From assembly GCA_950106755.1 (NCBI GenBank), contig OX467082.1:29636001-29700000 (forward strand): a DNA stretch of 64,000 bases, in the 5' to 3' direction. The position numbers and the translations under genes are program-made. This document shows, piece after piece, positions 8,005 through 62,526 of the stretch. Source of the DNA: Climacium dendroides. Its lineage: Eukaryota > Streptophyta > Bryopsida > Hypnales > Climaciaceae. How positions within the stretch are numbered: position 1 is the first letter of the stretch; each line of letters starts with the position of its first letter. Under the pieces are notes generated by a model. That model ran no database searches and was not told the DNA's origin. It saw nothing but the letters and a program-made list of their open reading frames with translations.

Positions 8005-8597
8005 TACAAATTTAGATTTTGCTTCTATCTTGAACCTATTTCTATGTAATATTTTTTTAAAGAATGAAAATTAAGTTAAAATTTATTTATTTATTTATTT
8101 ATTTATTAATTCTCAACTCAATTCCCCACCATAAAGATTCAAACCTCAACACTATGTAGTGCAAAAAGTTTAAGTCAAGAAGGTTCAAAGTCAAATAATC
8201 TAGTCCCGCAATGTGTAAAAAGACATGTTTTCTTTCTTTCAAATACAAACATCTTGCAATCTATGCGGTTAAAATTTCTAAAATTTATTCCACACATTCT
8301 CATTCTCGTTCTAGTTAGGTATAAGATTGAATGATTACATGTACCAAAAAAATAAATTCAAATTCTTTTTTGTTTGCATTAAAAATGGCATTTCTAAATG
8401 TTTAATTTTTGGGCAAAAAACAAGCCTTGGTCCTTATTCAAACTCAAATGATGAATTGAAACTTACACAATCGAATTTCCACTCCAATTTGAAAAGATGA
8501 GAAGCTCCTACAGTTGAATATTTTATTGCAATTTGAATTGTGTGCCTAAATCCATAGTCTATTGATTTTATAGATAAGGACACATAAATTTATTTGG
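8005..8597. repeat. 5' part of a dispersed repeat unit interrupted by the transposon
   Basis: Aligns with 24165-24650: shared strings include attctcaactcaattc, gtttaagtcaagaaggttca, tcttgcaatctatgc and gacacataaatttatttgg. The unit resumes at 23869. Related copies with tcttgcaatctat occur at about 39947, 50071 and 52380, so this is a dispersed family. Confidence 0.85.
8588..8597. repeat. Target-site duplication, left
   Basis: The 10-mer atttatttgg is repeated at 23859-23868 on the other side of the element and occurs once, uninterrupted, at 24641-24650 in the intact paralogue. The shared string can be stretched to 12 bp (with ca), so the true length is 9-12 bp, the range of Mutator-like elements. 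Confidence 0.85.
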
Positions 8598-8672
8598 CAA
8601 CGACGCTAGTGTGCAAGCCTTGAGCGGCGGGCTTGTGAGCTGCGAGCGTAAGCCTTGCGAGCGTGGAGCCCC
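8598..8672 (+). repeat. Left terminal inverted repeat (degenerate, GC-rich)
   Basis: Starts caacgacGCTAG and is a run of imperfect GCAAGCC/GAGCG units including GGCTTGTGAGC. It is the inverted counterpart of 23795-23858. Confidence 0.7.
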
Positions 8673-9672
8673 AAAAATTATAAAAATCCAACCTCCCCTC
8701 CAAAAAAAAAGTTAAAAATTTTTGTTCTAAAAAAAGACTTGTACTTACTATTTTTAGTAAAATTTGGGACCTATGACCAAGCCACCTATGACCGTGAATT
8801 TTAAAAAAAAAAGTTATTTCAATAATTACCATTTGAAATGTGAAAATTTTCTTCAACATTAGTATACAATTAGGCATGTACTTCCAACTCTATAATGCAA
8901 CTATGTATGTAATCGCCAATCATTTATAGGAGAAGATATAATTAGTTTAGCAAAGAACACTATAAAAAATATTTGATGGACATTACCTAGCCTCCACTAT
9001 AGCTGCTCTAGAAGAACTCTTAAGACTTAGCTCAATATGGGGATTGCGCCCAACGGCATAATTTGGGGCCTCACGGGATTCGAACCCGGGCCATCACATT
9101 TCAGTCTCATGGACCTCTCGCTAATATACTCCAACTTAATGGAGTGATTACTCAATTGAAAAAAATAAATATAAAGCATAGAAGACGTCTTCCTAGAAAA
9201 TGGGTAAGCAACCATAAAAAATAAATGACATGAAAGAGAAAAGGAAAACAAAAGAAAGAAATGGGAAGTAAAACGTAAAAAGGAGGGTACTAAATTATAC
9301 AAAATAGAAAAATAAAATGAAATACAAGTAACAATGGAGGAAAAAAAATAGTATGGACTTAGGATAGGAAAAAAATAAAAAGACATACAATTGCATGACG
9401 AAACAAATGAAAGTCAATATCAAGAAGAATGGAAATACTAATGGAAAGCCAAGGTAAAAAAAAGGGGAAAGACATGTGAAATACAATTCAAGAAGAGAAA
9501 AAGAAAGAAGAAGGAAAAGAAAATGTCATTCATATTCATATTTTCATAACTACATTACCTCTTTCAATTGTAGTTTTCAAGCTTCCATTTTTCTTTACTT
9601 CCCATCAATTCAATGGTATTTTAAATATATTAAAAAAATACCATTCAAATACATATGAAGTTTAATATGTGC
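8673..9672. other. Left sub-terminal, non-coding part of the transposon
   Basis: 3' flank of the transposase gene. It holds the inverted sub-terminal block (8766-8778) and the tRNA-like stretch at 9063-9135. Otherwise it is A-rich with poly-purine runs (9160-9530) and no credible gene. Confidence 0.6.
9063..9135 (-). repeat. tRNA-like fragment, possible SINE head
   Basis: On the minus strand there is a B-box-like GGGTTCGAATCCC inside a T-arm-like hairpin, preceded about 35 nt upstream by TTAGCGAGAGGTC, which resembles an A box. The 3' side ends GAGGCCCCA, but the 5' side does not pair with it, so this is not an intact tRNA gene. A tRNA-derived retroposon head is the simplest reading. Confidence 0.35.
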
Positions 9673-12600
9673 CTACTGTGGCATAGTGATTATTCCTGCT
9701 CGAAGTAAAAGAAGTTTCAACTCATTGAAACTATAACTCGGTGCATGAATGAATTTGTCGTCATGGATGTCCATCTTGCAGAAATATCGATACAAGTAAT
9801 ATAGGTGCTTGCAATTCACATACTGTTGACGTCCTCCAATAGCTGAAGTAGACATGTTCACAAAGTCTGGGCATGTGCAGGAAGGGAACATACCCACGGT
9901 TACTCGATACACATTTTTGTTCTGATCTATCCCAGTCTCCAGAGATATGATTGCTCCTAGTCCCGGGAAAGGAAGCAAAGTCACTCCCAAAATTTGACTT
10001 CTAACATTGCCTGCACTCTCCCACTTATTGCGTTGTTCTGCAGTTGGTGCATTTGCTATTCGCCGTATGGTTCGATTGTTCCTCATTGTAGGATACACAT
10101 CTGCATTTGTTGGCGGGACTTCATCATACACAACACTTTCAAAAATCTTTGACATGCTGAACAAATGACGTGGTGACAATGTAGGTTGTTCTTACAACCG
10201 GAAGCCAGCATGTTGCAACAATAAAGTCTCGTCTCGACTGAGGTTTGTTCCTGTCAAAATAGGCCAAATTTTTGGCACATCCGGCCAATCTATTACCCAC
10301 TTACGCTTCGTACCCTTCACACATCGTTCAATATCATCTATACAGAACCAAAAGTCTGCAAATACCTCTCGTTTTGTTCCGTAATCTTCTTTTCTACCAC
10401 GATAAGTTGGAGCTGATGTTCCCTTTCGTCCTCTTGCAATTTGAGCAGTGCACTTCATATTTGATCCTCGCTGCTGAGCTTGACACTTAGCATTAGATTT
10501 GTGACTGATCCTTGCAATGTGCCACTTTGATGTGTCACAGTCACTTTCAAATGCAATTGTCACATGGTTATACCTATTTGACTTGGTTCTTTTCCTTTGT
10601 CTTCCGAAGAGTTTATAGGAGGAATAGTGGACCTTGTTCGGACACGAGGTTGAGAGAAATTTACTTTGTCTGGTCGATGTGAGTTTCCTGCATCGCCAAT
10701 TGGAACGTCCAATTTCCTCTTCGTGCTCCCAAATATCTCTTCTCCTTCCAAATGTGGTATACGACTTCCAATTCCTTCAGATCCAGGTAGGGAATTCAAT
10801 GCTTCTGCCATTTTCTTAAGGTCTCTACTTCGTCTTGCAGCTCTCAACTTCAACTCCCCCTTTGACGGATCGGATCTAGAGGCATGGCCTCTCAAATATG
10901 CACGGTAGTTTGTCATTTGCATCCACGCACGGATGCTATCATCACATGTGGCATCAAACAAATTGTTTCCTCAGTTGCCAGACATTTGAAGCCATTTATT
11001 ATGAACTGTCTCTGATAGATTGCACGAAGGCATGTCTGCCATCTCTTCTAGATTCAAATCCTAGACATGCATCCAATAACCAAAATTACTTCTCATAATT
11101 ACTTTCATTCATTCCACCTACAGAAAATATTGAAGACCATTAATTATGTGCATGTATAGTTCAAATGGCATAAAAGGCATTCCTAAATAATTAATTAGAA
11201 AACACATACTATTTATGCTGAAACAAAATAATACATCATCAATATACAATTCACTTTTTACGTCGAATATGACTACAACTTGCTTGTACGGTAACAAATT
11301 TACATATAGAAAAGTGAATATTCTCTTACCATTTGTATGAAACCCCCCCACTGTCGGTATCTAAAATGCCAAAATGCCAACCAATGCTCCAAGTGATGAA
11401 GTGCATCTTCCGTGGCAGCACCTGATGATAACCACCATGAACGAATTGCTAGGTAACGTGTCTCTGCCTCCTCCATAGTTTTAGCATCTTTATACTGTTT
11501 GCAGAGTGTATTGTGCTGTTGTTGAAATACTTCCTTAATATGTTTCTGAGTATGTTTTTGGAGAGAAGTACTCCAATGTAGTAAGCATGTCCTCTCCCTA
11601 TTCTCCATTTTCTCATTGGCACATCCACTTCCGTAGACAATTCGAACTGCATTCCAATTGGCCATAGCACTATCTGCCATGAACCCTTTGAAGTTTGGGT
11701 GATCTAGTCCATGTCTTGACATGACAACATTCAATGACCTCCAGAATTGCACTTGAATTTCCGTATCTTCTGACTGCATATCGCATGTTGCAATGGTCAT
11801 TACCTTTTTGTACTCGGAATCGTACACGTGGCAAGCCATTGTAGTCCAGTCCTTTACACGCTTCACGTGGTCAAACATCATCCATGCATTCTGCAGATTC
11901 CCCCCTGGCTGCATGCGCTTCACCAAGTCTACTCCACTACCAGGTCCTTCGGTCAGCATCTTGAAAAAGTATACCTTCTCCTTTCCTTGACCAGGAAAAA
12001 CGCTATCATGAATGAACTCAAACTTTGAGTCTCTCTTCATGGTCATAATGTTGTCTATGACTCCTCCTCTATTGTTTGAGCGAAATGAAGAAATCACATT
12101 CCGAATGTTTGGACTGCTCAAATATTGGAAACGATCCATCACTTCCTCCAATTCCTCCCCTTGCAACATCTTCTTCTCTCCATTTCCGTTGTGGAATAGA
12201 TAGTTTGTAAGGAAGTCTTTGCTTGCTAATAGAGCAATGGCGGAGTTCGTGGCCGTTGGTGTTTTGGCCACTTGCTCTGCAATCAATTCACTAATCTTCT
12301 CTGCAGAATCTCTATACATGCCTTTGGCAATAGGGTGAGCATGATGTCCAAAATGAATAGCGGCCCTAGTCATTTTTGGATTCTCACTATAGCAGTAGTA
12401 CATCCTAGCATCACAGGTGCTTAGACACGTAGGAGTTTTTCTACAGAGTTTGCAAACCAGAGTACAGTCTTTAGGAGGAGTATCTCCTACTGTGAAAGCG
12501 AAGGTTGTTGCACCAGTCCACTCAGTTTCGTTGCGCTTTGAAGCCCTCTTCAGATAGTCACACTCTACATTTAGACAAACAAGATGACCAGCGTAGTATG

Positions 12601-13487
12601 ACTTACGGAACTTCAACTTGTCGGAGTTGTGGATGTTTGTAGTCACCAACTTGCACCATGGGTGTCCATCATATCTCTTGTCCATTCCTTCCAAGTTCTT
12701 GGCCACTGATGAAGAAGAAGATGAACGACATGGAGGCAACTCAAATATGACATTTCCATTGAACACGGGTGGAAGAAACTGTACGCAATGGTGCTTCATG
12801 CTGTTCAAGTTTGTCGTTGACAACTCATTTCGTGAACGATGCATTCTGCCTAATCCCCTCAAAGACTCCATTATACTGACTCGGTTCTCTATATTTGGTG
12901 GCAATGGAGGACGGGACAGTTTAGTTTGACCTCCACTGTCTGATGGGTTGCTTGACACTGGCTTCACCAAAGCATTTCCCTGCCATGCAACTTCAATTTT
13001 GCATGCAGTTCTCCGGATTGTTAAGTCAGGGGACTCCTTCGGATTCACTAGACAACTCTATGATGGTATCTAACTTCTCAATTTTAACTGGGCGAAGACC
13101 TGAGTTATCAAAAATGACTGGCAGAGCTTGACGACTAGGACTGCATGAAACCATATGAGCAACATATGGCATATCTACAGAAGAGTTATCTGACTGCCTA
13201 CTTCGAATTTTGGTTGATGCATTTACCATAGACAATGGTAGCCCATAAGCTCTATAGTTTCCAATAGGAAGATACCAACATTGACTTCCTTCCTCTATAG
13301 ACTTCAATATTGGAATTGACTGCTATACTTCTCTTGATTCAGACATTCTCTCTTCTTCTACATAGATGGACGACTCCACAAATCTAAAACGGACGTACAA
13401 GAGATGGCTCAGAACTCTAGCATGTCCACCCTCATCAACTGGAAACACTAGGGGAATGTCATGGCCATCTACACGAATGCAAGCCAT
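9673..13487 (-). pseudogene. SWIM zinc-finger DDE transposase gene (Mutator-like), broken
   Basis: Start chosen at the ATG at 13487 (MACIRVDGHDIPLVFPVDEG). Reading on: a SUMO-interaction-like stretch DTIIELSSESE; a Cys-rich region (CKLCRKTPTC); then the transposase core with DWTTMACHVYD, GFMADSAMANWNAV, CLLHW (the CxxH typical of Mutator transposases) and FWHFRYRQWGGF. An intron (11329-11061; donor ATG|GTAAGA, acceptor TCTAG) leads to an exon opening DLNLEEMADMPSCNLSETVH. The C-terminus has a SWIM finger: CTC, then NCKHLYYLY (CxC...CxH). About 1,180 codons. Breaks: TAG at 13325-13323, an extra C in the run at 13029-13032, TGA at 10973-10971, a frame change somewhere in about 10560-10620, and TAA at 10194-10192. 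The stops lie in the same frame as coding on both sides. A live copy would cut and paste the element; this one should not make full-length protein. Confidence 0.85.
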
Positions 13488-16198
13488 GATACAATCTTCA
13501 CTTGAAAACAATAGTGAAGATCAACTACAAATTTGTCTTTGGTGTTTTGAGTATGAATACTCACTCTCTTATAGTACATTTTCATGCATATTGATTTTAC
13601 TATACAACTAGTGAAAACTGAATAGGATACTAGGAAGTAGTTAAACTTCAAATTTACCGGACATTAACAACTGTCTTGCAACTTCTACAACATTCTCATA
13701 ATAGGGCCCCACAGTTAAACATTTATTGATGTTCGCGGCTATACCTGGCACACTTACACTACATATAGAAGAAGTACTTGCGCACCAATTTCAAAAAATA
13801 GAATAATTGGCAACTAAGCCTAGTACTCTAGTAGGTTCAGATTGTCTACAATAGAATTATTTGCGCAACAATTTCAAAAAATAGAATAATTGGCAACTAA
13901 GCCTAATACTCTAGTAGGCTCAGACTGTCTATAATAGAATTCTTTCTGCACCAATTATTTGAAAGTTGATAACATGACTACCACTGAGGTATACAGTACA
14001 AAAATATAATAGAATAACCTATTTTCCACATACAATAAAAAGGGATTGCATTGCAATTTTATGTACATAAATGAACACATCGATTTGTACTGTCTATGCT
14101 TCAGTAATTAGAACTGCTTTCAAAGTACTTCCTAAAGAAAGAAGATGGTTTATATATTCCCTCGGATTGCCTCATGGGGATTGTATATATATTCCTTCAA
14201 ATTCCCTCATGGATGGCCCAAATGTCTACATTCATTACAATTGTGATGAATATGAAACTAACTTCTGATTGTGAGTTCTTGGCTAAACTTTATTTTTAAT
14301 CCTATTTAACTTTCATAGTTTCTGGTAACTATAAATCATGCCCAATGTTATGGATATAGTACAATAAACAATGAAATAAGCCAATCAGCCTGCCTCTTTA
14401 ATTAAGTTCCTTCATCATGGCAAGTTCCTTTATCATTCATTGGCTTTGGCATATAGTGGCACACACCATTTTATAAGCCCAAGCCATTAACCTTATACAA
14501 ATCCACATAACCCACATAGTTACATCCTTGGACAGGAAATGAAAATATTTATCTAGTGTAGAATGTGAAGAGAGTATAGTGGTATCGTAAAACTTAATTT
14601 TTCTATTCACTGTAGTGGAAATGTAATTATTCATATAGAGTAGAAATTAAAGATAATAGTCAGAAGAGAACTAATTTAGCATAGCATTTCTGAACATTTT
14701 GTGAAATTAAGAATTAATCTTTCTATTCCATATTTGACAGTAATCATAATGAGTACTCTTCCATTTTGTATTCAACAAAATGCACTTAAAGTTTTTGGTT
14801 TCATGAAGTTTGGACCTGCATTAGAAAATTGATTGATTTCTAAGTATGTTTTGAGTTATGGCAACGGCACAGGGCACTCCAGTATTCTCATGATATAAGG
14901 TAGGTGGCTCTTAAACCGACCCTTAAAGAGGTCATTGCATTTTTGGGAAAGCTAAACAGCTTGAAACAATTTTCAGTGAATTGGCGTAGAAAAAAAAATT
15001 GAATTGACATCTAATCCCAGTCGTTTCGTATTCTGTGGACCTTTGTGGAATTCGAATCCACTTGCAATTTCGACTCTAAATTTTTTGTTGACGGTCCTTG
15101 CAGCATTGTAAGCCCATGCACCGAAACGATTGCCCAGCGCCCGAGAAGAGAATTTCACATAAATCCTGAAGTTCATGCATGAGACAGCGCAGTGTGAAGT
15201 TCGATGAATTGTCCCAAAATTCTGCGCATCGCTTCAGTCTATAGCCTCGTGAAAATTTCTACGTGACCTCACGACACCACAAAAGCAATCGGAACGGTTG
15301 GAATCCCAACTCACCATCGAGAACGAACTTCTTGAAATTCGTGGGTCACCATATTCATTGGATACGGTGCTGTAGAGGAAGAGCCCGAGGGCCGTTCAGG
15401 GGTTAAATTATTACTGTCAGCCTGTTTATTGAGGTATTTAACCTTCTCTCTCAATACTCTTCTGCTGAGCAAGCTAGTTTCATGGAAATCAAGCAAGTTT
15501 TAAGGTGCAGCCTTTTTGCGGTTGGTAGATTTTGACTGGGATTCTTCCGTAAACAGCCGAGCTCATCCAAATGCATGCACCGAATTCATAACCACAAACC
15601 AAATTTGATTGAGATTCTTCCGTGAACAGCCGAGCTTGTGCATGCAAATGAGCATTTACTTTAAATCAGCATATTCTGAATTCAAACATCAAAAACTACA
15701 GCACCTGACAACGTCGCATGCATGACGTGCCATCTCAGGATCTGAATTCGCTAAAACTGAAGGCCACCGAAAATCCTTTTCCGACTGAACTACCTGTACT
15801 CCATGTGCATCATTATGAGTTTGGAATCTCCTGCCATATTGGAATGACGGACCGCATGTGGCCATACTGACATCGAGGGAAGGAATGTTTTGAATTTGAA
15901 AAGCGTCTCCAGAGGTTCTTCCTGGGAATCTTCCGTAAGAACTTCCTTCCTCCAACTTCGAATGACTGCAGTATAGAATTGCAGGGTCTCTCAGACATCC
16001 TCAACTGCTTGCTTCGTGCCTTTAGTACTTGACGTTCTCTTGTTCGAGTCTCTGGACGGTCCACGAGTTTCTCGTAGTATCCCTGAAGTCCCCTTCGGTA
16101 AGTGTCCTCTCTCCTCTTACTGTAGTTTCCAGTTAATATTTCCCGTTCGTTTAAGCTTCATTGAGTTGCTCTTGTATTCTAGCTGAACTTCTGTCGTC
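13488..16198. promoter_or_regulatory. Divergent intergenic region between the two transposon genes
   Basis: Both genes are read outward from here, so it should hold their promoters. The left part is AT-rich with an 83-bp tandem repeat (13778-13943). From about 15000 to 16200 it is richer in G+C. A strong donor, TTCG|GTAAGTGTCC (about 16098), and an acceptor-like CATGCAG at 16198-16204 suggest a 5' leader intron for the plus-strand gene. A repeated string, gattcttccgtaaacagccg, occurs near 15540 and again (one base different) near 15611. No promoter element can be called with confidence. Confidence 0.45.
13778..13943. repeat. 83-bp tandem duplication
   Basis: Two units starting near 13778 and 13861, sharing caatttcaaaaaatagaata and ctaagcctartactctagta. 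A partial third start (tgcaccaatt) is near 13946. Confidence 0.85.
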
Positions 16199-16607
16199 AT
16201 GCAGGTGGCTTCGAACTTCGGCGGTACGCTCCATCCTCCGAGAATGCGGAACACTAGGAGACAGAAGCGGCTGCAGTCGGAAGAGGTGGAGCCGGCACCG
16301 ACTTTAAATGACTTGCACAACAACCAGGTTAGCATCGTCCTCCAATCGAGATGTCTAGCTCTCATTGCGGAAGATTTGAACTTCTTTCTACTCTCAAGAT
16401 TCTAATATTTACAGCAGTTTTCCTGTTCATCTGGGTATACAGTTTGTCTGAGCAGTGACGATCTATGCCAGGCATAGCTGCTTTTCCGTTTTTGATTGAC
16501 CTTGAATTGAAGATTGCCCAGTCTCTGTTTGGTAGATGAATGCCTTCGATCGGTCATAACAAATTGATCATTACAATGTAGTTGAATTTTATGAACCGCT
16601 AGTTCAG

Positions 16608-16703
16608 CAGTTGGGGCGTCTTCCACAACTGGATCAGCAATGTCAAATGGAGGTTCTGTCATAGACTCTGAAGTATTCTCCCGTCGCTGCGATCGTGGAA
16701 GAG
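16608..16703 (+). other. Possible extra exon of the ParB/methyltransferase gene
   Basis: Between AGTTCAG and the donor GAG|GTACGTG lies a 32-codon frame that keeps phase 0 on both sides (QLGRLPQLDQQCQMEVLS, then TAG at 16662-16664, then TLKYSPVAAIVEE). It reads as protein apart from one stop that C-to-T in CAG would explain. This is a guess based on splice signals and composition. Confidence 0.3.
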
Positions 16704-16782
16704 GTACGTGCATGAGGAGGTTCGCGATGAGGAGGTTTGGAAGTTCCGGAACATGCTGGGACTGGGAAGGCCAAAGTAACCA

Positions 16783-16884
16783 GCAAGACTCGAATTGGGG
16801 GTAGCATGAGCTACCCCAAGGAACCCTGTCGGGTCCGATAGGGTTCCCTGGGGTAGCTCACGCTACCCCCAATTCGTGTCTTGC
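16783..16884. repeat. 102-bp foldback hairpin, copy 1
   Basis: Nearly perfect palindrome with 51-bp arms: gcaagac ... gtcttgc at the ends, gggggtagc/gctaccccc within and ggaaccct/agggttcc near the loop. It sits in the intron before the exon at 18288. Copies at 17357 and 17835 have the same length. Confidence 0.9.
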
Positions 16885-17356
16885 AATACTGCAGTGTCGT
16901 TGTGAGGATTCAACAGGGTCCTTCGGTATTTTATGGTTTTCTTTTTCCATTCATCCAATCTTGTCCGTATGGTTCGATTGGGTACTATAGTTGGGTACAG
17001 TACGCTTCGGTAGCAATACAGTAATGATGATAAATAGTGTTATGTATACTAATTGATTTAAAAAAGTCAACTATTGGACAAAATTATTTTACAAAATTAC
17101 ATTTAGTGTTACATATTATTTCATCAAATTACAATGAAAAAAATAAAAACCTAAAAATATGAATTAAGAAATGGTGAACAAAACACTAAATGCAAACCAA
17201 TTGAAATTTTGAGTGGGTGTGGTAGAAATTCAAGTAAAACTATTAGTAATATAACACTAAATACCATCATTAGTGTAGTCGACGTGACTTTAAGTTCATT
17301 GAGAAATTCATGGTCAATGCAAACGCCGTGGACCAAAACGCACACGCCATGAAAAA

Positions 17357-17458
17357 GCAAGACCAAAACTAGGGATAGCGTGAACTACACCAAGGAACCC
17401 TATCGGACCCGACAGGGTTCCTTGGGGTACCTCACGGTACTCCTATTTTTCGTCTTGC
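17357..17458. repeat. 102-bp foldback hairpin, copy 2
   Basis: Same ends (gcaagacc ... gtcttgc) and core (caaggaaccctatcgg / cccgacagggttccttg) as copy 1, with more mismatches in the arms. Confidence 0.85.
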
Positions 17459-17834
17459 TATCCTAGTCTCCATGGTGAGGGACGTTCAATATGCACGTCA
17501 ATAGTGGGTTTACAGTACGTTTCAACAGCCATGTTTGGGTGCATTGACCGGGAATGACCTCAAGTGATGTCCACGTGATTTTGTTTTGCCTGTATTGAAA
17601 AAAAGTTGGATTTCGACTTTATTTTCCTCCAAGTCTAATTTAGTTTCTTCTCATACCTTTGATGGAAAAATCACCGAAAATTAATTGTTTATTCTTCATG
17701 GAAGTTTACGAAATCCATTGTGAGGAAGCAATGAAGGGAACTACTGTAAATTAGTCGTTTACTTTGACCTTTAATGTATTTACTAGATATGAAGTGTCCA
17801 ACCTCTACCTTTAAGTTTCTATCAGTGCTGGACT

Positions 17835-17936
17835 GCAAGACCAAAAAATAGGATAGCGCAAGGTACTATATAAACCCCCGTTGGACCCGACAGGGTTTAT
17901 GGGGGTGGGTGGCATTACACTTCATTTTGGTCTTGT
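17835..17936. repeat. 102-bp foldback hairpin, copy 3
   Basis: Ends gcaagaccaaaa ... ttttggtcttgt; the core is ataaacccccgttgg / cccgacagggtttat. It is the most diverged of the three. Confidence 0.8.
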
Positions 17937-20900
17937 AGAAAGAAGTATATTTTTAATTTTAGGAATGTTTCAATGTGCATGAGTTCTATTTTTTTAATTA
18001 TTTCGATTCCTTGAGTTTCCTCCCTGTATGATTATAAGGAAGGGGTAGGCATATGTCATAAGAGGGCTTTCCCTGTTTTCGTGCAAATTACAAAATTTAT
18101 AAATATTTGGTATTCCAGCTATGGGAATGCTGAAATGGAAGTCAAGTAAGTTTGAGATGTCAGTTTCTGTTTTTAATATTGATTTTTTCTTCTTACTTTT
18201 TATTGATGTACTCTTAGTATTATTTTTTAAAAATTTATTCAATTGTAACTAACATTGGCCTACCTTATTATTAAAATGGTTTTGCAGATGAATACACATG
18301 TGAGTCTGAACGACCATGCCCTTTTACCAATACCTTCCAATATGGCAATCCATATTGCAGATGTTGCGGGAACTTCGGAACCTAGGACTCCAGAAGATAG
18401 AAACATCAACATTGCTAGCCAGTCATTGCCTCATGAAGACACTGACTTGTTAAGCCTTGGAGATATTCTTGATGTTTGTAACCGAGCAGCTGATCAATTA
18501 GATGAACCTTGTTGCAGTAGGTTCAGTGATTCCAAAAAACAAAAACAAAAACAACCAGTGTTCTCTCCTGAGAGTTCTAAGACTGAGTATAGTAGCTCTA
18601 ATTGTCAAACATCAATCTCCATTTCTAGTCCACCAATTAAGGATATTAGAGATACTGCTGGCAGCTCCGGATTGGGCAGGCACGATATTGTCCTCATCCA
18701 CTTGAGTTCTGATTCAGATGCTAGTGTAGAAATTGATTGAGTTTGAAAGGAATAGAGGCAGCTGCAGTGTTGCAGCATTTGTATTACTTAGTCATTGGTG
18801 TTATTATGATACGGGCGATTATGTATTACTTGTACAATCCTTTGTATTGAGAATTTTCTTACCATCATAGTAAAGATTTGTTTTGCAAGTTGAACTTGGA
18901 ACTTCTGGAGGACTTCCGTGTATTTCGTAATTGCTCTAAAAAATGTACATGATCTTGCAGATGGAGGAGTCATCAATTAATCTGTCACAGGCAGAGGAAG
19001 TTCATTCAACTCCACCTACCAGTGAAAGAGGTCAACCAGAAATTGGCACTGAGGAAGAAGGAGATGTTGAGGTGAATGATGTTGATGAGGAGGAGGAGAA
19101 GGAGTTGCTGGAAGATGAACTCCGATGGTTGCAGAAGGTAGACTCTGTGGCCACCATCGAGAGTTTGAGGATGAGGCCTCAGAAACACTCCCGAATGCGC
19201 ATACCTTTGTGCAGATTGGTACCCATGCTAATGGTTAGGCCCACCCTCTCTTGTGATCTTGTAAAGCTTGAACAAGAGTTTGTTCATGGATATCGGGATG
19301 GAGCCACAGTTTTTTATGTTTCCACAACTAATGAGGCGGGGGAGTCTTCTGAATTCTTGAGAGATGAAATGGATGCTTGGGGTCCTTTGTGGAAATCAGA
19401 GAATGACATCTTCAATGAGTACTTAGATTCATTGCTAGAGTTGAGGTACTTGAAGAACTCGAAGTTTTTTATCTGTGATGGAAATCACCGTCGCTTGGCG
19501 TGGATGAATCATATCTCGAGGCTGCATGTGGTGGATCAAACTTGGCACATTTCAGTAGACAACATCATTTTGGACACGAAAGGGAGAATAGAGCTTGTCA
19601 TGCAGATTATGCATGACATCAATAAGTAAGCGTGTATCATATGATGTTGTTTGATTGAACTTAATCTTTGACTTTTATTATTTTGTTATTCAATTTATTC
19701 ATATGTATGAAATGATTTTATAGTCTAATGTGAATTGTAGGTCAACAGAGGATTCCCATGTGAAGACCAATCTAGTTCATACTCTTTATGGTGTTCAGAA
19801 GTATGGGCTTCTTCCCATGGAGAAGTTCAATGAAATGTTGAGACCTTTTGAGAGGAAACGTTGTGGTACGCAATCAGTGAGAAAAACATGGTACTCAATG
19901 CCAATGGAGGTCTTCACGGCTTTTGTTTTTCGGGTAAGAGTGAGAATGTTCTAACTATTTTATATATCTTTCATTTTAGGTCATTACAATATAGGAAGGG
20001 CTGATGAATGTGCAAATTTGGTATAATTGAAATTGTGTTGATGTTATTTTTTAGCAAGAGATAGCTCAAGGAGCGGATGCCACAGTACGGAAGTACAATG
20101 AAGTGACAGCATCTGAAGATAAAAGTGATCAAGGGGTGGCTAATGCCATGAGGGTTGGAGCTAAGGAGAAGGCGGCAAAGTTGTACGTGAAAATGGGAAA
20201 ATTGCTTGCGGTGGCAAATCCTACTCACGGTCCAGGATTTCTGGAAGAGGTGATGAAGATTTATGATGTAAAAAACGGTTGTCTTATTTTTTATTATTGT
20301 GATTTATTTAATGCTGAAATTTTTTTATTTCCTTGTGAAGGTTGAAAAGCATTGGACCACAAATGAGGTTCCTAAAATGACATTGGAAAAGCTACAAATG
20401 ATAGCCACTTGCAATACCTCTGCAACACAGAAGACAAAGTTGTTGAAGTGGTGGAACTCGTCCATGCCTTCACGGGATGCCAGACGTTTCCCTCCAAAGC
20501 CAGTTTCTGAAGAGAAATTGAGGCCTTTCCTCAATAAATGGGTTTGGTGGGCATGGGTAAGTGTTTGTATTTATGTAAATGATTTTTCATGTATATAATG
20601 ACAAAATCATGAAGTACTACATTTTGCAGTTTTGGTTTTTCTTGTATACGAAACGATAATGGAGTTGTACTGATAAGAATATAATGCAGATTGAGGATAG
20701 TGCGGTAGAGTACTTTGACAATGTAGTCAATAAAGATGGCCTAAAAATCAATATGGCATCCCCACTTCAACCGGAGTATCTTCCAGAGTATATAGAAGGA
20801 TGGAGAAGGAAGATTTGGGATCAAGGTTTTGGCCCAGCTTTGAAGGGATCAAACCCTTTTAAGAAGTCAGAGACCTTTTCAAATTTTGATGGATCAAATG

Positions 20901-23277
20901 ACGCTGTTCGTAGAGTTCTTTTCCGGTATGTTTATGTAAATATGAATTTTATGTTTCCTTACTTTCTTCGAAGGATGAGCATACGTAGTTATTTGTTCAG
21001 TGAATTTGTGTTATTTGTAACAAGGAATTCGGCTATGTGATTGTTACTAATTTTTTTAATGTTCTTATTGTAGGTATTTCAAGTACGAGCTTTTAGGGAA
21101 GAACGCCATCCCTAGGGAGGATCTTCCTCCATTTCTAACCACATGATTGGACCGAAGTTCTGAAGAGTGCATGTTCACGTCAAGCCAACTGAAGACATTC
21201 ACGACGGCTCATCTGAGTGGTGGTGCGTGGTATCTAGATTGTCCGTTGACATTTACTCATCCATCGGAAGTAGAACTTCGGAAATCACTAGACGGTCTTG
21301 GCGTCATTGACTTGGAGGTTCCCGAATTCAACAACTACACTAATCAACAGAAGAAGAAAGCAATTGCAAGGAGAATGGTTGCTGACAAGAAGAAAGAGAA
21401 CAAAGAGCAAGAGATTCGTGAGAACAAGGAGAAGAAAGAAGCGGAGCGTCTTATGAAGTTAGCAGAGAAGGAGAAGGAGAAAGAAAAGGGCAAGGAGAAA
21501 GGCAAAGGCAAGAAGAAAGAAAAAGGCAATAAACAAGTACCGGCGTCTTCAACAGTTGATCAGAACTCGCACATGCAAAGTGGATCCCAAAGTGGGTTGA
21601 AGAGGAAGGTGATACTTCCATATTTCACAGAGGACATCGTAACACAAGGTACTCAAGCCATAGTTCTTGGTGATGATGCAGACGTCACTTTAGAGGAATT
21701 GATCTTGAACGTCTCTATAGTGGACGTGATGGATAACATGGAGTCCGAGGTGCCCAAGTGCTATACTGAAGTGACGACCTTTTTGAAGAAGGTAACCATG
21801 ATGCTTTGTCTAGAACTATGAATCCTTTTTTTTGTGGACCTTTGAAAAAAAGTTGTATAAATAATTGATTGTTTGCATAAATTCGTTTCTGCAGTTGGCA
21901 CCAGGGAAGTCCCGTATGTATGGAGGTAAAGTGAGCCAAGCACCTTTAGTGGACCTCATCTTCTTTGACTGCCAAGAGAATTTACCTGTCCCAGATGTAT
22001 CTTCTCCAGAGAAAGCAATACCTTCATGAAATTCAGATCCAGAGTATGAAGCCATTCAATCGGCCTTCTTTTTTGCAGATATGCACTTACAAGACCATGG
22101 TTGCATGATAGTATTTTAGTCATGGTGTGCCGATTCAAAAGGCATTATTGCAGGATTGTGCGAGTCTTATCCTTCACTGGTAATGAAGAAGGAATGGTTG
22201 GATATCAATCGTATGCATTTAACTTCAGCTATGGAGGACTTGGAAACGGTTAGTGTTTTTCAAATATTTTCATAATTTTAATGGAAACTGGCATTGACAG
22301 ATGGTTGTATTCTTTTCTAATACATAATTTTTTTGTGACCGTAGACTTTGAAGTTTGGAATCACTCTTTTGGTGAAGGATCTTGGTGATAAAGAGAACTC
22401 AGGGTTCTCTTTGAAGCGATCACAAGCAATGCAGAAGGCAAAAGTAGACCTATGCAAGGATGATACATTAATTAACTACACAACTGAAGAGAGCATGTTG
22501 GTCAATCCACTAACCAAAATTCCATGGCGAGGGCCTCGCGAAAAGGATGCTAGGTTCTTCCAATTCCTTATAGAGGGGACAACTGAAGAAGGCGACTTGG
22601 TTTTTGACTACACAGCATCCACTAGTTAGTTTTCATTTTAGTAACTGGATTTTCATATATGTGTTCATATAATGATTCATTGATATGAATTGCATTTTGT
22701 AATTTGTAGGTGCATCAATTACAGCATGTCGCGGCACGGGACGACACATAGTGGCTTTAGAGGAAGACAACACTGTTTTTCACGGCGTCCTTGAACCTAT
22801 GAAAAGGAACACTGAAGAAGATGTGATAATAACTGAAACGCAACTGCCACTGCCGGCTGCATCTTCACAAGATCCGGACGCAATGATAGTGGTTCCTCGG
22901 AAATTTCCTCGCCGAACTAAACCTAGTAAGTAAGTTTTTCATATCTTTCAAGTGCTATTTGACATCCTACTTCTTTTATTTCGTGACTTTAATATTCTAT
23001 ATGTTTTTTTTGTAGGCGTAAGAAACTGATGTCCACAGATGCATTGAGGAAGAGACGCAAACTAGTACTAAGTCCAGAGAAGCCTTTTGATCTCCCAGTT
23101 TATGCTGAGCAATTAGCATCAACATTTGCAAACTTTGGTAGCTTAGAACCAAAACGTAGAAAAGATACCTATGCTCTTAATGTTCTGCAATTTATAGATG
23201 AATCGGCAGCAGAGGGGAAAGAGACTTCAGAGTCTGAGAGTAGTTTGGCATCTGCAACTCAGTCCACTACAACCTAG

Positions 23278-23858
23278 ATTTATGAGATTGATATATCTCA
23301 TGAGTCAAATTATTATGTATTCATTTACAGTATGATTTGATTTGATTGTGTGTTTTATGGCTACATCTTTAGTATGATTCATTCCCCTTCAACATTTTGC
23401 ATTTCATGTTTTCTGTCAAAATTAACTCTTGAACGTCGGATAGGGTCCCGTAGAAATCAATGATTCTGGAACCGTGTGACATCATTTACTTTAACAATAC
23501 CAAAAATAATTATTGGGAGTCAAAGTATTGTAGAAAATCTCTCTTTCCCACCTTTAATTATGTGGATGAATAGTTGTAGTTACGTCCTACATATGAGATT
23601 ATTTTGTCATTCATTAGATATTTGACGTCCTGTATGGCCTTTTTGGGTTGAACACAATTGGTTGTTGCAATTTTTTATTTCATTTAAGTTTGTAAGTAAG
23701 TAAAATTTCAGAAGAATGAGCTCAAATCTTCACAAAAAAAAATACACTTACATCCACGGTCATAGGTCCCACACATTTTTTTAATAAAAAATCTTTCCCA
23801 CTCATAGGCTCACAGGCTCATGGGCTCATGCTCACAAGCTCGCCTGCTAGCAACCCTG
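23278..23858. other. Right sub-terminal and terminal part of the transposon
   Basis: 3' flank of the methyltransferase-like gene, without a gene. It holds the inverted GGTCATAGGTCCC block (23758-23770) and the right terminal repeat from about 23795, a run of AGGCTCAT/AGGCTCAC units ending GCTAGCAACCCTG. Confidence 0.7.
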
Positions 23859-23868
23859 ATTTATTTGG
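23859..23868. repeat. Target-site duplication, right
   Basis: atttatttgg, identical to 8588-8597. The next bases (caccaaaat) continue the dispersed repeat exactly as in the intact copy at 24651. Confidence 0.85.
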
Positions 23869-24164: not shown

Positions 24165-24945
24165 TTTCAATTTAGATTTTCCTTCTATCTTGAACCTTTA
24201 GTTTCAATTTTTTTTAGATTCTCAACTCAATTCTCCACCATAAAGATTTAAACCTCACCCCTAAGTAGTGCAAAATGTTTAAGTCAAGAAGGTTCAGAGT
24301 CAAACAATCTAATCCCACAATTTGCAAGAAAAACTTGATTTCATTCCTCCAAACACAAACATATTGCAATCTATGCAGTCTAAATTTCTGAAATCTATTC
24401 CACACATTCTCATTCTCATACTAGTTAGGTGTAAAATCGAGTGATTACATGTGCCAAAAATATTAATTCAAATTTTGTTTTGTTTGTGGTAGAAATGACA
24501 AAATGAACATGTGAATTGAAACTTACACAATTGAATTCCCCCCAAAGATGAAAAGCTCCCGATATTGAATATTTTATTGCAATTTGAAGTGTGGGCCTAA
24601 ATCCATAGTCTATTGATTTTTGGTTAAGAAGGACACATAAATTTATTTGGCACCAAAATGTTCTTTATGTGCAAAAAGGTGAAATTTTTTGGATGCATGA
24701 AGCTTATTTATATTGGATATGAATTTCTTCACTGTGTCTTTAAAAATTCCCTATAATTTCAAGAATGTACAAACAAATCTAAATTCCTCAGAACTACTTC
24801 AAAAGAGGGGATTTCCTCTCTGTTACAAATAAAAATGAATAATTCCATAAAAATATCATTTTAAAAATGAAAACTACTGTACAGATCGAATGAATTTCAA
24901 TTAAAATTTTCCTTCGTTACTAGGTTAAGTCACTAATTCCCCAGG
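24165..24945. repeat. Intact tandem paralogue of the transposon target (empty site)
   Basis: About 780-bp unit equivalent to 8005-8597 joined to 23869-24164. The site gacacataa atttatttgg caccaaaat is continuous here at about 24632-24659, so it serves as an in-window empty allele. Confidence 0.85.
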
Positions 24946-24961
24946 GCGACCACTACATAGT

Positions 24962-25200
24962 GAAGCGGGCCCGGCATGAGCGCCACCCCATTGGTCCTCA
25001 CTGTCTGTACAGTAGCGTCACTAGTACTGAAGCGGGCCCGGTATGGACGCAGCCCCATTGGTCCTCACTGTCTGTATGGAATGTAATGTCTGTAGTGCTG
25101 AAGCGGGCCCGGCATACGCGCAACCCCATTGGTGGGTAGTGTCTGTAGAGCCGAAGCGGGCCCGGCGTACGCGCAACCCCATTGGTCGCAGGTGTCTGCA
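24962..25200. promoter_or_regulatory. GC-rich minisatellite with four inverted CCAAT boxes upstream of copy 2
   Basis: Four imperfect units with GAAGCGGGCCCGG starting at 24962, 25029, 25100 and 25153, each followed by CCCCATTGGT, i.e. an inverted CCAAT box. It lies a few hundred bases upstream of the likely leader exon of the LRR gene, so a role in its promoter is plausible. The abrupt change from AT-rich DNA at about 24945 marks the gene boundary. Confidence 0.7.
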
Positions 25201-25466: not shown

Positions 25467-25752
25467 TATGCTGCTGTCTGTCAGTGATTCCTTCTGTGCT
25501 GCTGTTCGGAATTCGATTGAAGTGAGTTCTTGCTATGTCCTGTGAAACTTGGATGGGTTTGATGTTTTTTTCGCTATTCCGCGTGAATACTTGAGAGGGT
25601 TCAGATGCTTTCTTCCTTCGAGGCCGAGGAATATAAGAGAAGGTAGTCGATGATGAGGATGGCATATGAATTTCTGGAGCCAATTAGGGTTTGGTGTTGA
25701 CACGTGATGTTCGTGCAGGAATTGGCATATCCGCAGCTCACGAGATTGCACC

Positions 25753-25800
25753 ATGGCACCGCTCAAGGTGAATTTTGACCTGCACATAGATGGAATCTGA
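25753..25800 (+). CDS. Conserved upstream ORF of LRR copy 2, 15 codons
   Basis: MAPLKVNFDLHIDGI then TGA. The equivalent in copy 3 (62526-62479, minus) is MTLGKVDFHLHIDGF then TGA: same length and shared KV, F, LHIDG. It lies in the second leader exon about 110 bp before the main ATG. Equal length plus conserved C-terminal residues suggest a peptide or start-selection role in translation control. Confidence 0.55.
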   Translation: MAPLKVNFDLHIDGI

Positions 25801-25908
25801 TGAGCGAGATGGAGCTGAGAAATTGTTTCTTGCATGGGTGTGTGTCTCCTGTGCACCTCTGGACCTGTGCATGGATGCTGCAAGATTGGGCTCTGAAGCC
25901 GGGCAGTC

Positions 25909-28269
25909 GTGACTATAAGTGCACAGGTGTCCAAATGGGGAAGTTGGTGTGGTATCCCGCGAACAGCTGGTGTAGTAGCTCTGGTTTGTTTGCTTGCGAA
26001 TTTGAATGGGGTTGGAGGACTTGTTGGCGACGAGCATTGGGCTCTGTTGGACTTCAAGAGCTCCGTATCCGACCCGCGCGGGGTTTTGAGAGGTTGGCAA
26101 GCCGAAGATCCATATCCTTGTGAGTGGTACGGTATAAGCTGTGATAAGCATTTTCATATCAGCGGCATCAACCTCCAGCGCAGCGGGTTGTCTGGCACCA
26201 TCTCCCCAGAGTTGCACAGGTTGCGGAAACTGAGGATTCTGAATTTGTCTGAGAACCATTTTTCTGGTCCAATACCAGCGCGGCTATCAGAGATTGGTAA
26301 GCCCTGCAGGCTGAAGTGTGTTTGATTTTGCGTATCTTCCACAAGTCCGATGACTGGGATGCAGCTATTGCCGTGCATAGTAGTCGGGTTTGAAGTATTG
26401 CTCAGGAATAGGTGATGCAAGATGCATTCATTGATGAAGTTCGTCCGTCGGTCGGTCCCCAAATATGGCCAATAGCAGATGAGAGTAGAATTTGTTTCCA
26501 TGTGTTTGACAATCTGAAAGCCTGCAACAGGGGGCCTTTGGAAGCTGAAATTGGATCACAACAGCCTTTCGGGGGTTGTACCGGGGGAGCTCGGTCATCT
26601 TTCTAATTTGAAGATATTCGACCTGTCCTATAATGATCTTTCGGGTCGAATTCCTGGGACGATTTTCCGCACCTGCCGTCGCCTGTGGTACATATCGTTG
26701 GCACACAACAGGCTCGAGGGTTCCCTCCCTAACAGTCTCCAGAACTGTACGAAGCTCATGGGATTGAATTTTTCAGCGAATTCATTGCAAGGTAACCTCG
26801 AAGTTGACTGGAGCAAGCTGAAGGATCTGAGTTCCCTAGATCTTCAAAGGAACAGGCTGTCAGGACACATCCCAGCGTCCCTCGGAAGGCTTCCATCATT
26901 GAGCTATCTCCATCTGGGTGACAATCTGCTTGGTGGGCGGCTGCCTCAGGAACTGGTCCGACTGCATAGTTTGAAGCAGTTGTCCCTGAATAACAACCTC
27001 CTCTCAGGAGAGGTTCCTGCAAAATTGGTCTCGCTGCCCAGCGTCCAGCACCTGGATCTGTCTTCCAACGCTTTCTCTGGAAGGATTCCGCTCCATGGCA
27101 GTGACTGCAGGTCACTTCGGGTCTTGAACTTGGCCCAGAATATGTTCAGGGGTGCTATTCCTGATGCATTGGGTAATTGCAGTCAGCTCGTGTTCCTAAA
27201 TATAGCACACAACCGGCTCGGTGGGACCCTACCTCCCGATCTTGGCTTATTGGCCGGGCTGAAGTCGTTGGATGCGAGTGGCAACCGTTTAGTTGGTGAA
27301 ATTCCAGCTAGCATCAGCGGAATGACGGCCATGAGAACCCTGGTGTTGAGGAACAACGGAATTCATGGGGAAATACCTGCAGAGATTGGCGCCCTCAAGG
27401 CATTGGAGATCCTTGATCTCTCGAATATGAACCTTGATGGTGTCATCCCTTCTGCACTAGGGAGCTGCACATCGTTGCAGAAATTGTAAGTTTTCACTTC
27501 ACCGCTCTCCAGCTGTTTTAGAGAGCAGAACATTTTGAAGTCCGTCTGCACCATCCCCGAGTAGTCCAGTTTCCCATTCACGAGTAGTCCCTCGAAACAG
27601 TTTGGATATTTGACTGCGCAAGGTCCATTTCTAACTTCAGTACCTTGTCATTCGTGTACGGATGGGAGGAGCATCAGTATCATTCTGAGTGTGCTCCGTA
27701 TGTGCAGGAATCTGTCCAGCAATCAATTGAGCGGCAGCATCCCAGCCGATCTTGGGGAGCTCCTCGATTTGAGGGAACTGGACTTGTCAAAGAATACGTT
27801 GACTGGTGCTATCCCATCTGCTTTGGGGAATTTGAGTTCATTGGTCATCTTCAACGTCTCGTATAACCATCTGTCGGGGAGAATTCCAAGCGAAATTTCT
27901 TTGGCCGATTTTGGAATGCGGTCATTTGTTGGGAACTCGGCTCTGTGTGGTGCCCCTTGGACCCCGCCGTGCGAAGAAGTTGGATTACCATCGAGTTTCC
28001 CGTTCGGAGCTCCCCTTCCAACCCCGAACGTGGACCTGAGATTGAAGCGACGCCCTGATGTTAGCAGTCCATCCATTTTAGCCATCGCGATTTCCGCGAT
28101 GATTGCTGTGGTTGTATTGGTCGTTTCGGTTCTCAGCGTGGTGATTTGGAGGGAAAAGAAGAGTCTCGACCTGGGGATGCATGAGGAGAAGGTCATGGAC
28201 GGCTTGAGCAAGCAAGAGTCGTCGTCGGGAGCTTCATCAGCTTCCGAACATGTCGTGCAGATTGATTGA
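25909..28269 (+). CDS. LRR receptor-like protein without kinase, copy 2 (complete)
   Basis: Three exons: 25909-26296, 26531-27485, 27708-28269 (phases 1 and 2 join cleanly), 634 aa. Order: N-terminal hydrophobic signal (TAGVVALVCLLANL); LRR N-terminal cap with WALLDFKSS and a CxWxGxxC-like CEWYGISC; roughly 18-20 plant LRRs; a CGAPWTPPCEE cap; a membrane span near residues 575-600; and a 30-residue cytosolic tail ending SGASSASEHVVQID. Copy 3 carries on into a kinase after MDGLS and ends in the same EGASSASEHVVQID, so this gene looks like that receptor kinase with the kinase cut out in frame. The closest family I can name is the At1g12460/At1g62950 LRR receptor-like kinases. It probably acts at the plasma membrane as a ligand-binding or decoy partner; this is inferred. 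Confidence 0.9.
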
Positions 28270-28968
28270 CAGTTGTGAAGTAGAAATTCAGTGCAGCTAA
28301 TTTTATACTTAGTCATGTACTGAGTATATAGTTAGGAGGCACGTACTTGGAGCTCGTAGTTTATGTCAGTCCTCTGGCAAGGCTAAGCCTATTGTGAGCT
28401 GGAGTACTTATTTTTAAAAATTTTACAATGACATCTCTTTATTTGCATTCAAAAAAGAATGGCGCTATCTCGTTCTCTGCATTGCGGTCTTCCTTACGTG
28501 AAACGAAGTAACCACTTGAAAGCACGCTTTACTTTTATTACCGCAATTTGTCATGTCACAAGACGTTGTTTTTGTATGTGATAGCAAGGAGGTCAGAAGG
28601 ATTTGTTTAGCATTGTTGGTGTGTAAGGTGAAGCTGGAGAGGAAAGGAAAGTTTTTAATGGAAAGTAAGGCGTGATCATAGACGGTGGACAACGTCTGCT
28701 TGTCTTCCAACTGGAGCTTTTGAAGCTTTCAGAGACGCTGTAGGTGATCCTCCCTTTCGAAACTTGGGGTTTGGCTACTGCATTCCTTAGCATACTAGGA
28801 GGTGTTTTTACGTGTGCGATACGATTTTGAGCTTGTTTATTAGCAGAAAGCAAATCTCCATGACTTACATCGCACTAATTGTGGGATTTGAATTGGCGAT
28901 TGAGAGCGCAGATTATTTAGCAGCTTTGCAAGCTGTTGGCGGCTGTTGGCGGACCGGACCCCAATTAT
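27025..28968 (+). repeat. Direct segmental duplication, right copy
   Basis: Partner of 1-1891. It covers most of exon 2, exon 3 and the 3' flank of copy 2. Similarity extends to the left window edge in copy 1, so the full duplicated length cannot be seen. Confidence 0.9.
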
Positions 28969-62378: not shown

Positions 62379-62478
62379 GACTGCCCGGCTTTAGTGCTTA
62401 TTCTTGCATCATCTGTGCGGAGGTGCACATGAGACACACACCCATGCAAGAAACAATTTCTGAGCTCCATCTCGCTGA

Positions 62479-62526
62479 TCAGAATCCATCTATGTGCAGG
62501 TGAAAGTCAACCTTGCCAAGTGTCAT
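62479..62526 (-). CDS. Conserved upstream ORF of LRR copy 3, 15 codons
   Basis: MTLGKVDFHLHIDGF then TGA, matching the upstream ORF of copy 2 in length and in its C-terminal half. It lies about 100 bp before the main ATG, in a leader segment that is homologous between the two copies. Confidence 0.55.
   Translation of the reverse strand: MTLGKVDFHLHIDGF

Follow-up and report, generated by a model that had tools for sequence, protein, structure and literature searches.

Proteins that combine a ParB-like domain with an N4/N6 amino-methyltransferase (MTase) domain are known from mobile DNA of algae and prokaryotes. The Ectocarpus transposon Sola1-1_Ec32 encodes a ParB plus N4/N6-MTase accessory protein, and green and red algal relatives are cited in the same paper (PMC12477816); ParB-methylase fusions and polyvalent proteins such as Bce_0392 are described in prokaryotic selfish DNA (PMC5512222). 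The VANC proteins of Arabidopsis VANDAL elements are described as anti-silencing proteins that bind their own element and remove cytosine methylation (PMC5735166, PMC10398659), and a eukaryotic DNA cytosine-N4 methyltransferase is reported as a 4mC mark system of its host (PMC8885841). In two papers that also mention Physcomitrella, the term 'ParB' proved to be a species abbreviation, not the ParB protein.

The window analysed here, 64,000 nt of Climacium dendroides contig OX467082.1 (29,636,001-29,700,000, forward strand), contains a ParB-MTase gene within a transposable element. The first-pass annotation knew of no other transposon with this combination, but it is reported for brown, green and red algal transposons (PMC12477816); what is new is a ParB-MTase accessory in another, SWIM-type and apparently land-plant transposon lineage, with a high copy number and an altered catalytic motif. 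As in Sola1-1_Ec32, a single protein of about 1.1k residues unites ParB-like and amino-MTase domains, and its gene lies on the strand opposite the transposase in a giant DNA transposon (PMC12477816), whereas the moss element has a SWIM-type transposase, a 10-bp target-site duplication (TSD) and another host. The comparison with the algal proteins is one of description, and the alteration of motif IV (24 of 24 copies read) is recorded for the moss element. The element and its surroundings are as follows.

8588..8597, no strand: left 10-bp TSD ATTTATTTGG, read at the junction
8598..23858, no strand: whole transposable element, 15,261 bp, with ends CAACGACGCTAG... and ...CTAGCAACCCTG and imperfect TIRs
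23859..23868, no strand: right 10-bp TSD ATTTATTTGG, read at the junction
24201..24936, plus strand: empty site beside the element, where a paralogue of the flanking repeat lacks the insertion

Similarity to genomic copies has its left limit at 8597 or 8598 for three composites and its right limit at 23858 for five of ten, and the empty-site paralogue aligns with the left flank of the element as far as the TSD and with the right flank from the TSD onward. All three copies read at both ends have a 10-bp TSD (one with a mismatch), and their flanks and TSDs differ. At first look the genome holds approximately 900 dispersed candidate loci (911 for ParB, 899 for MTase), from which 150 of each were scored. 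A TSD of 8-11 bp is a feature of MULEs; that of the moss element fits this range, and its transposase has no recognisable Pfam MULE transposase domain. Tandem arrays sit between the two genes of the element, reminiscent of VANC targets, and arrays in non-coding DNA of the element are a likeness to the VANC system (PMC5735166, PMC10398659). Such arrays are not unusual elsewhere in the window, whose 64 kb give 25 rows of them, and the intergenic ones are not used as evidence.

The plus-strand gene (16199-23277), previously placed inside an element of about 15 kb, is indeed spliceable and lies inside the TSD-bounded element, with ten GT-AG introns and phases that join over 1161 codons. The twelve exons first proposed become 11 coding exons, and their frame, although in phase, is interrupted by three in-frame stops overlooked in the first pass (TGA 21144, TGA 22027 and TAG 22117), so that the window copy is decayed.

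16199..16327, plus strand: exon 1, identifiable in three of the ten copies fetched, each of them from subfamily A
18288..18740, plus strand: alternative exon or small ORF; at its end IVLIHLSSDSD, which resembles a SUMO-interaction motif, precedes a stop of its own
18961..19625, plus strand: exon 2, ParB/sulfiredoxin-like domain (alignment A1; weak ParB-type profile matches in relatives)
19477..19494, plus strand: DGNHRR core, read directly
19741..19933, plus strand: exon 3
20055..20267, plus strand: exon 4
20341..20556, plus strand: exon 5
20690..20925, plus strand: exon 6
21074..21791, plus strand: exon 7, lysine/glutamate-rich linker, with TGA 21144 in frame
21895..22248, plus strand: exon 8, MTase motif IV-VI part, with TGA 22027 and TAG 22117 in frame
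21967..21978, plus strand: motif-IV position, D-C-Q-E in the window copy (register from 10 relatives aligned with 13 phage MTases)
22345..22624, plus strand: exon 9, carrying the motif X-like region and the first part of motif I
22606-22624 plus 22710-22768, plus strand: motif-I-like region
22710..22929, plus strand: exon 10, remainder of motif I (SAM-site-like)
23016..23277, plus strand: exon 11, with the stop and a basic C-terminus that by eye resembles a nuclear signal

The phase of the small ORF fits exon 1, and similar ORFs are found in six of ten composites and in one of two further copies scanned.

Exon 2 probably encodes a ParB/sulfiredoxin domain, as the first-pass annotation had proposed from the DGNHRR core. 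The core is present, and D-G-N-H-R is invariant in all seven rows of alignment A1, but the profile matches over it are weak: phrog_1033 in one of six proteins (E 0.0021, the best ParB-type match), DUF6551 in one of five ParB-region queries (E 0.015) and DUF1015 in two of the five (E 0.043-0.044), while unrelated families score comparably on the same domain (OAR 0.047, AlwI endonuclease 0.099, Imm63 0.15). The window's own copy of the domain has no ParB-type profile match, and a PDB search with the region found no ParB. An hhalign comparison with a phage set gave 88% over 16 columns, and none of 200 column shuffles attained its score; it is biased, since possession of the motif was what qualified the phage proteins for the set. 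A search for closer prokaryotic or viral relatives of the domain gave phage matches only at E of at least 3, one plasmid match at E 4, and none in IMG/VR; single-sequence AF2 modelling of the lone ParB exon gave a mean pLDDT of 35 and no usable fold.

The C-terminal domain is, judged by profiles, of the N4/N6 amino-methyltransferase fold. PHROG methyltransferase profiles match the window copy (6.4e-7, 3e-5 and 2e-4) and five of five family members (best 6e-10), Pfam N6_N4_Mtase likewise matches all five (best 2.5e-5), and hhalign gives 97.4% over 70 columns. The score for PF01555 in the first member of subfamily A2, 23.8 bits, is below the gathering threshold of 26.7, and six-frame searches of the genome matched neither PF01555 (E up to 0.001) nor PF02195 (E up to 10); the division of the domains among exons may be the reason. 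With tblastn against phages (E up to 10), the MTase domain of the window matched 297 records (best 2e-3), mostly through the motif X-I part and mostly at E above 0.05, and a family MTase domain reached 2e-7. Among the 30 matches listed of the 297, 25 are annotated, 22 as DNA methylase or methyltransferase and three as hypothetical; each of the 13 annotated phage matches retrieved is a stand-alone MTase, 224-266 residues long, rather than a fusion. A PDB profile search matched DpnA at 7e-4 and 8s9m weakly (E 0.24); we take 8s9m, and the enzyme of the host 4mC mark system, to be the bdelloid N4CMT. Both that enzyme and the moss domain are bacterial-type amino-MTases resident in a eukaryote, but the one is reported as a host mark system and the other is transposon-borne with an altered motif.

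Motif IV is another part of the earlier proposal that does not stand unmodified. Canonical motif IV of N6_N4_Mtase (PF01555) is [DNS]PP[YFW]; the transposon copies have D-x-[Q/P/L]-E. The aromatic position is occupied by Glu in 24 of 24 readable copies, as against Tyr in 13 of 13 aligned phage MTases, so that P-[YFW] occurs in none of the former and all of the latter, and the full [DNS]PP[YFW] in 0 of 24 and 8 of 13, respectively. The motif order (IV, then X-I) and the match of the X-I region are those of DpnA and phage adenine methylases, but the moss domain departs from them at each of the [D/S]-x-P-Y, HPTQKP and GSG-type motifs. The motif I/SAM-site region can be aligned and is conserved, its GSG-type residues being mostly STG. 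The changed motif IV argues against ordinary 6mA/4mC deposition; a change of this kind, read from sequence, does not prove inactivity. We consider it unlikely that the protein is still an active methylase of adenine or cytosine amino groups, directed to its own element by the ParB-like domain: the motif-I region is conserved and constrained, Asp opens motif IV in 23 of 24 copies, five of the 13 phage MTases also lack strict DPPY (having DIPY or DLPY), and for the brown algal counterpart the authors predict 4mC or 6mA as the product (PMC12477816), but the Glu in every readable copy, together with the HPTQKP and GSG-type positions altered in the 10 aligned copies, speaks against it.

At slightly better than even chances, we favour the view that this is the second gene, beside the transposase, of a DNA transposon that forms TSDs and is present in many copies, and that its product is an accessory protein which binds the element encoding it and is probably no standard DNA methylase. 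With its catalytic signature altered across the copies examined, it looks more like a helper that the element has retained than like a bacterial gene gone astray. The transposase-like gene lies on the other strand.

9673..13322, minus strand: transposase-like gene, its frame interrupted in the window copy relative to that of another copy
13026-13322, minus strand: SIM-like N-terminus
11300-13057, minus strand: DDE-like part (DDE residues by eye only)
10192-10970, minus strand: middle part
9673-10191, minus strand: SWIM part (CxC...CxH by eye)

The SWIM profile scores 14.4 bits (window copy) and 12.7 bits, under its 19.6-bit cut-off; the DDE-like frames of the window copy and of copies L027 and L015 match none of the Pfam transposase models, and the transposase has no relatives in IMG/VR. 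The linkage of the ParB-MTase gene to the transposase-like gene is borne out, and profiles match the methyltransferase, so that neither of the refuting outcomes named in the first pass applies. All ten elements fetched by the ParB core contain both genes in one divergent layout, and of the 150 ParB places listed, 90 have a transposase from the corresponding list at most 25 kb upstream in divergent orientation, where uniform random placement expects 0.67; around the other 60, no transposase of that list occurs within 25 kb, whatever the arrangement. Across 11 copies, transposase and ParB-MTase distances are correlated with r 0.987, a value reached in none of 9999 permutations. Linkage and co-divergence would also suit a transposition cofactor acting in excision or integration rather than on chromatin, its ParB-like domain nicking or loading DNA and its MTase-like domain recognising sequence, and a bacterial ParB-methylase fusion is reported to have nicking activity (PMC5512222). 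No sequence feature tells such a role from anti-silencing, and we give the cofactor a low probability.

Between subfamilies A and A2, dN/dS is 0.09 for ParB, 0.25 for MTase IV-VI and 0.20 for MTase X-I; for the MTase it is 0.13-0.25 between subfamilies, with dS above 1 or saturated in many of these comparisons. Such purifying selection, the presence of the gene in five ParB-selected subfamilies (mostly 50-98% identical to the window copy exon by exon), the co-divergence with the transposase and one model in ten free of stops and frameshifts all disfavour a passive passenger, a host or bacterial gene taken up by Pack-type capture and without a role for the element. We regard this as very improbable, despite the decayed frame of the window copy, the one or two stops in eight of ten ParB-selected models and the case of L037, one of three further copies picked solely by their transposase, which showed no such gene in the 10 kb read. 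Bacterial contamination or an assembly artefact, which the bacterial type of the domains might suggest, is refuted by eleven exons split by GT-AG introns and by the roughly 900 dispersed first-look candidates, whose flanks and TSDs differ among the three copies with both ends read; the gene is, as first thought, a long-resident eukaryotic one.

The accessory protein would comprise about 1,160 residues, in which a long middle region that includes a charged linker separates a ParB/sulfiredoxin-like module from one with the N4/N6-methyltransferase fold. It would work in the nucleus, bind the DNA of its own element through the ParB and/or MTase fold, and keep the element expressed or aid its mobilisation, probably without ordinary DNA amino-methylation. 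It could possibly mark the element's own DNA and, by hypothesis, might help it escape silencing, a role that we liken to that of VANC. VANDALs are Mutator-like elements, and we know of no MTase domain in VANC. The likeness lies in a non-transposase protein of a plant DNA transposon with a possible anti-silencing role (PMC5735166, PMC10398659). A bolder proposal, less likely than not, is that a land-plant transposon has kept, for as long as its transposase, a ParB-MTase fusion minus the base-stacking aromatic of motif IV as a SAM-binding, element-recognising clamp against host silencing, a pseudo-methylase system that would be convergent with, or derived from, the ParB-MTases of algal transposons.

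Transposon-borne ParB-MTase accessories, reported for algal elements, extend to a SWIM-type element with ends defined by TSDs and some hundreds of candidate copies, in an apparent land plant. Constraint on the protein and its inheritance together with the transposase persist despite the altered catalytic signature, and therefore 6mA/4mC writing, DNA reading or counter-silencing is directly testable in a genome with many copies.

The ParB-methyltransferase gene (16199-23277, plus strand) belongs to a mobile element and is under constraint. The element occupies 8598-23858, and a second copy of the repeat that flanks it (24201-24936), which is like the left flank up to 8599 and like the right flank from 23859, is the empty site of the insertion. 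In three of ten composites, other genomic copies become similar to the window sequence at 8597 or 8598, and in five the similarity stops at 23858; the remaining composites fall short of the element ends or are too diverged. Target-site duplications of 10 bp were found in all three copies with both ends read, listed below. The terminal inverted repeats are imperfect, and no Pfam model gave a match supporting the MULE label.

Element copies with both ends read
Window copy: 15,261 bp, target-site duplication ATTTATTTGG
Second copy: 15,106 bp, target-site duplication TATAATATAG
Third copy: 15,128 bp, 10-bp target-site duplication with one mismatch

The span between the two divergent genes holds an 83-bp tandem repeat (2.3 copies, 13770-13956), also present in three other copies of subfamily A that were read, while copies of subfamilies C and D carry other arrays there (39 bp x 5.9 and 91 bp x 4.8). 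Outside the element, LRR-receptor-like (LRR-kinase-like) sequence was recognized by eye at 1-1890, 25621-28966 and 59980-62655, including a direct duplicate (1-1890 and 27025-28966, 95%) and an inverted one (25621-28210 and 62655-59980, 83%); GC-rich tandem repeats of 53/67 bp (24961-25198) lie immediately upstream of such sequence. A neighbouring LRR-kinase-like ORF is, together with the first-pass annotation, the basis for calling the host a plant.

The family was searched for in 412.6 Mb (123 contigs). The ParB core gave 911 first-look candidates, a part of the transposase 1009 and methyltransferase exon 8 899; because only 150 places per query were scored (all 150 with E no higher than 0.001), figures near 900 stand for candidate copies rather than a copy count. 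At 90 of the 150 listed ParB places, a listed, divergently oriented transposase lies no more than 25 kb upstream, against a mean of 0.67 and a maximum of 2.5 such pairs under uniform random placement (1000 trials); at the other 60, no listed transposase lies that close, whatever the arrangement. Of the 77 ParB places entered from partial lists, 60 are followed on their own strand by an entered exon-8 match no more than 6.5 kb downstream. Among the matches listed, 62 transposase places have no listed ParB, and three were read: the transposase-selected copies L035 and L036 carry a more divergent ParB-methyltransferase gene, and L037 has none in the 10 kb read. Ten copies fetched by the ParB core, spread over the subfamilies named A, A2, E64, B and C/D, all have the DDE-like transposase part on the opposite strand and ParB-methyltransferase matches from exon 2 on; the SWIM part is present in eight, the other two stretches stopping short of its expected place, and exon 1 was recognized in three.

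The two genes have diverged together: their pairwise protein distances in 11 copies, including that of the window, correlate with r 0.987, and none of 9999 permutations was as high. For one A copy compared with one A2 copy, dN/dS by the Nei-Gojobori method is 0.09 for ParB, 0.25 for methyltransferase motifs IV-VI, 0.20 for motifs X-I and 0.30 for the C-terminus. Deeper comparisons gave 0.07-0.46 where obtainable, with dS above 1 in many and saturated in many, and within subfamilies the range is 0.18-1.65 from few changes each (two values undefined), a spread expected of decaying copies. One of the ten ParB-selected models, whose first one or two exons are unreliable, is free of stops and frameshifts, a second has a frameshift but no stop, and the other eight contain one or two stops, three of these being frameshifted as well.

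The window gene is predicted to have 11 coding exons, ten GT-AG introns and 1161 codons. The first-pass annotation described twelve exons joining in phase; the phases are indeed consistent, but the coding exons are 11, and three in-frame stops (21144, 22027, 22117) mean that the window copy lacks the capacity for the whole protein. Exons 2-11 were found again by a purpose-written spliced aligner with the spliced window protein as query, over a stretch that excluded exon 1. An extra exon or small ORF at 18288-18740, phase-compatible with exon 1 as an alternative terminal exon, closes with the SUMO-interaction-like motif IVLIHLSSDSD; ORFs resembling it occur in six of the ten composites and in one of two further copies scanned (L036, with none found in the L035 scan). 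An akin motif, IIELSSESE, stands at the N-terminus of the transposase, whose frame in the window is broken near its start (13026-13325) by comparison with a 740-residue open frame in another copy (L015). Intron 1 contains three fold-back, MITE-like palindromes (16782-16884, 17356-17464 and, read by eye, about 17837-17940).

The C-terminal domain is confidently predicted to be a methyltransferase fold with altered catalytic residues. The window copy matches PHROG methyltransferase families (6.4e-7, 3e-5, 2e-4) and Pfam N6_N4_Mtase at 0.037 only; the five members of the family alignment all match the latter, with E down to 2.5e-5, though for the member whose score is shown 23.8 bits fall below the cut-off of 26.7. 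All five likewise match phage DNA methyltransferases, at best with 6e-10. Against solved structures, the five-member profile found DpnA (7e-4), CcrM (0.16) and a cytosine-N4 methyltransferase (0.24). A subfamily-D copy used as tblastn query matched phage methylases at 2e-7, and profile-profile comparison with nine phage methyltransferases reached 97.4%, restricted to 70 columns in the motif X-I region. These matches uphold the amino-methyltransferase likeness first read from motifs IV and I, but motif IV itself is altered in every readable copy. When ten family copies were aligned with 13 phage methyltransferases, D-C-[Q/P]-E-N fell under phage [D/S]-[P/I/L]-P-Y. Motif IV was readable in 24 of 25 modelled copies (the stretch taken for copy L058 missed its target, and in L037 there was no gene that could be modelled): 13 have DCQE, four DCPE, two DIPE, and one each NCQE, DYQE, DLQE, DCLE and DC*E, the last with a stop at the third position. 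None of the 24 has [DNS]PP[YFW] or P-[YFW], and all have glutamate at the fourth position; among the 13 phage controls, eight have the strict form, five DIPY or DLPY, and all P-Y. The HPTQKP-type and GSG-type residues are likewise altered in the ten aligned copies, and the window copy additionally lacks a motif-I glycine that those ten keep. Active self-marking of the element by this protein is unlikely.

The N-terminal domain is probably ParB, on thinner sequence support than the methyltransferase and partly by analogy, because a brown-algal (Ectocarpus) Sola1 transposon has an accessory protein to which its authors (PMC12477816) assign the same domain pair. The ParB core proposed earlier has on its side D-G-N-H-R, invariant in seven of seven aligned copies (a further copy, L036, has DDNHR), and weak matches over this stretch: one of six ParB-region proteins matches phrog_1033 'ParB-like partition protein' (0.0021), DUF6551 (0.015) and DUF1015 (0.043), and a second matches DUF1015 (0.044). 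Searches of PDB and PF02195 were both negative, and unrelated families match this domain at comparable E (OAR 0.047, AlwI endonuclease 0.099, Imm63 0.15); structure prediction of the domain gave no usable fold. The combination was not known to the first-pass annotation; given the algal case, transposon ParB-methyltransferases are a kind already known, and PMC12477816 cites a 2011 Elsevier chapter and Petroll et al. 2025. No report of a bryophyte or other land-plant case was found among the matches listed from the open-licence literature, which for some queries were a part of the total. The 2011 chapter is presumably that by Iyer, Abhiman and Aravind.

Prokaryotic ParB-methylases with nicking activity are described in PMC5512222. 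That the transposon protein is a transposition cofactor is as unlikely as self-marking. The reading somewhat favored here is that it is a non-methylating DNA-binding accessory protein of the element. Anti-silencing by VANC, a protein of Arabidopsis VANDAL elements, is described in PMC5735166 and PMC10398659. The protein encoded by the element in the window would bind DNA, would act in the nucleus, as its basic C-terminus (read by eye) suggests, and may serve to keep the element active.
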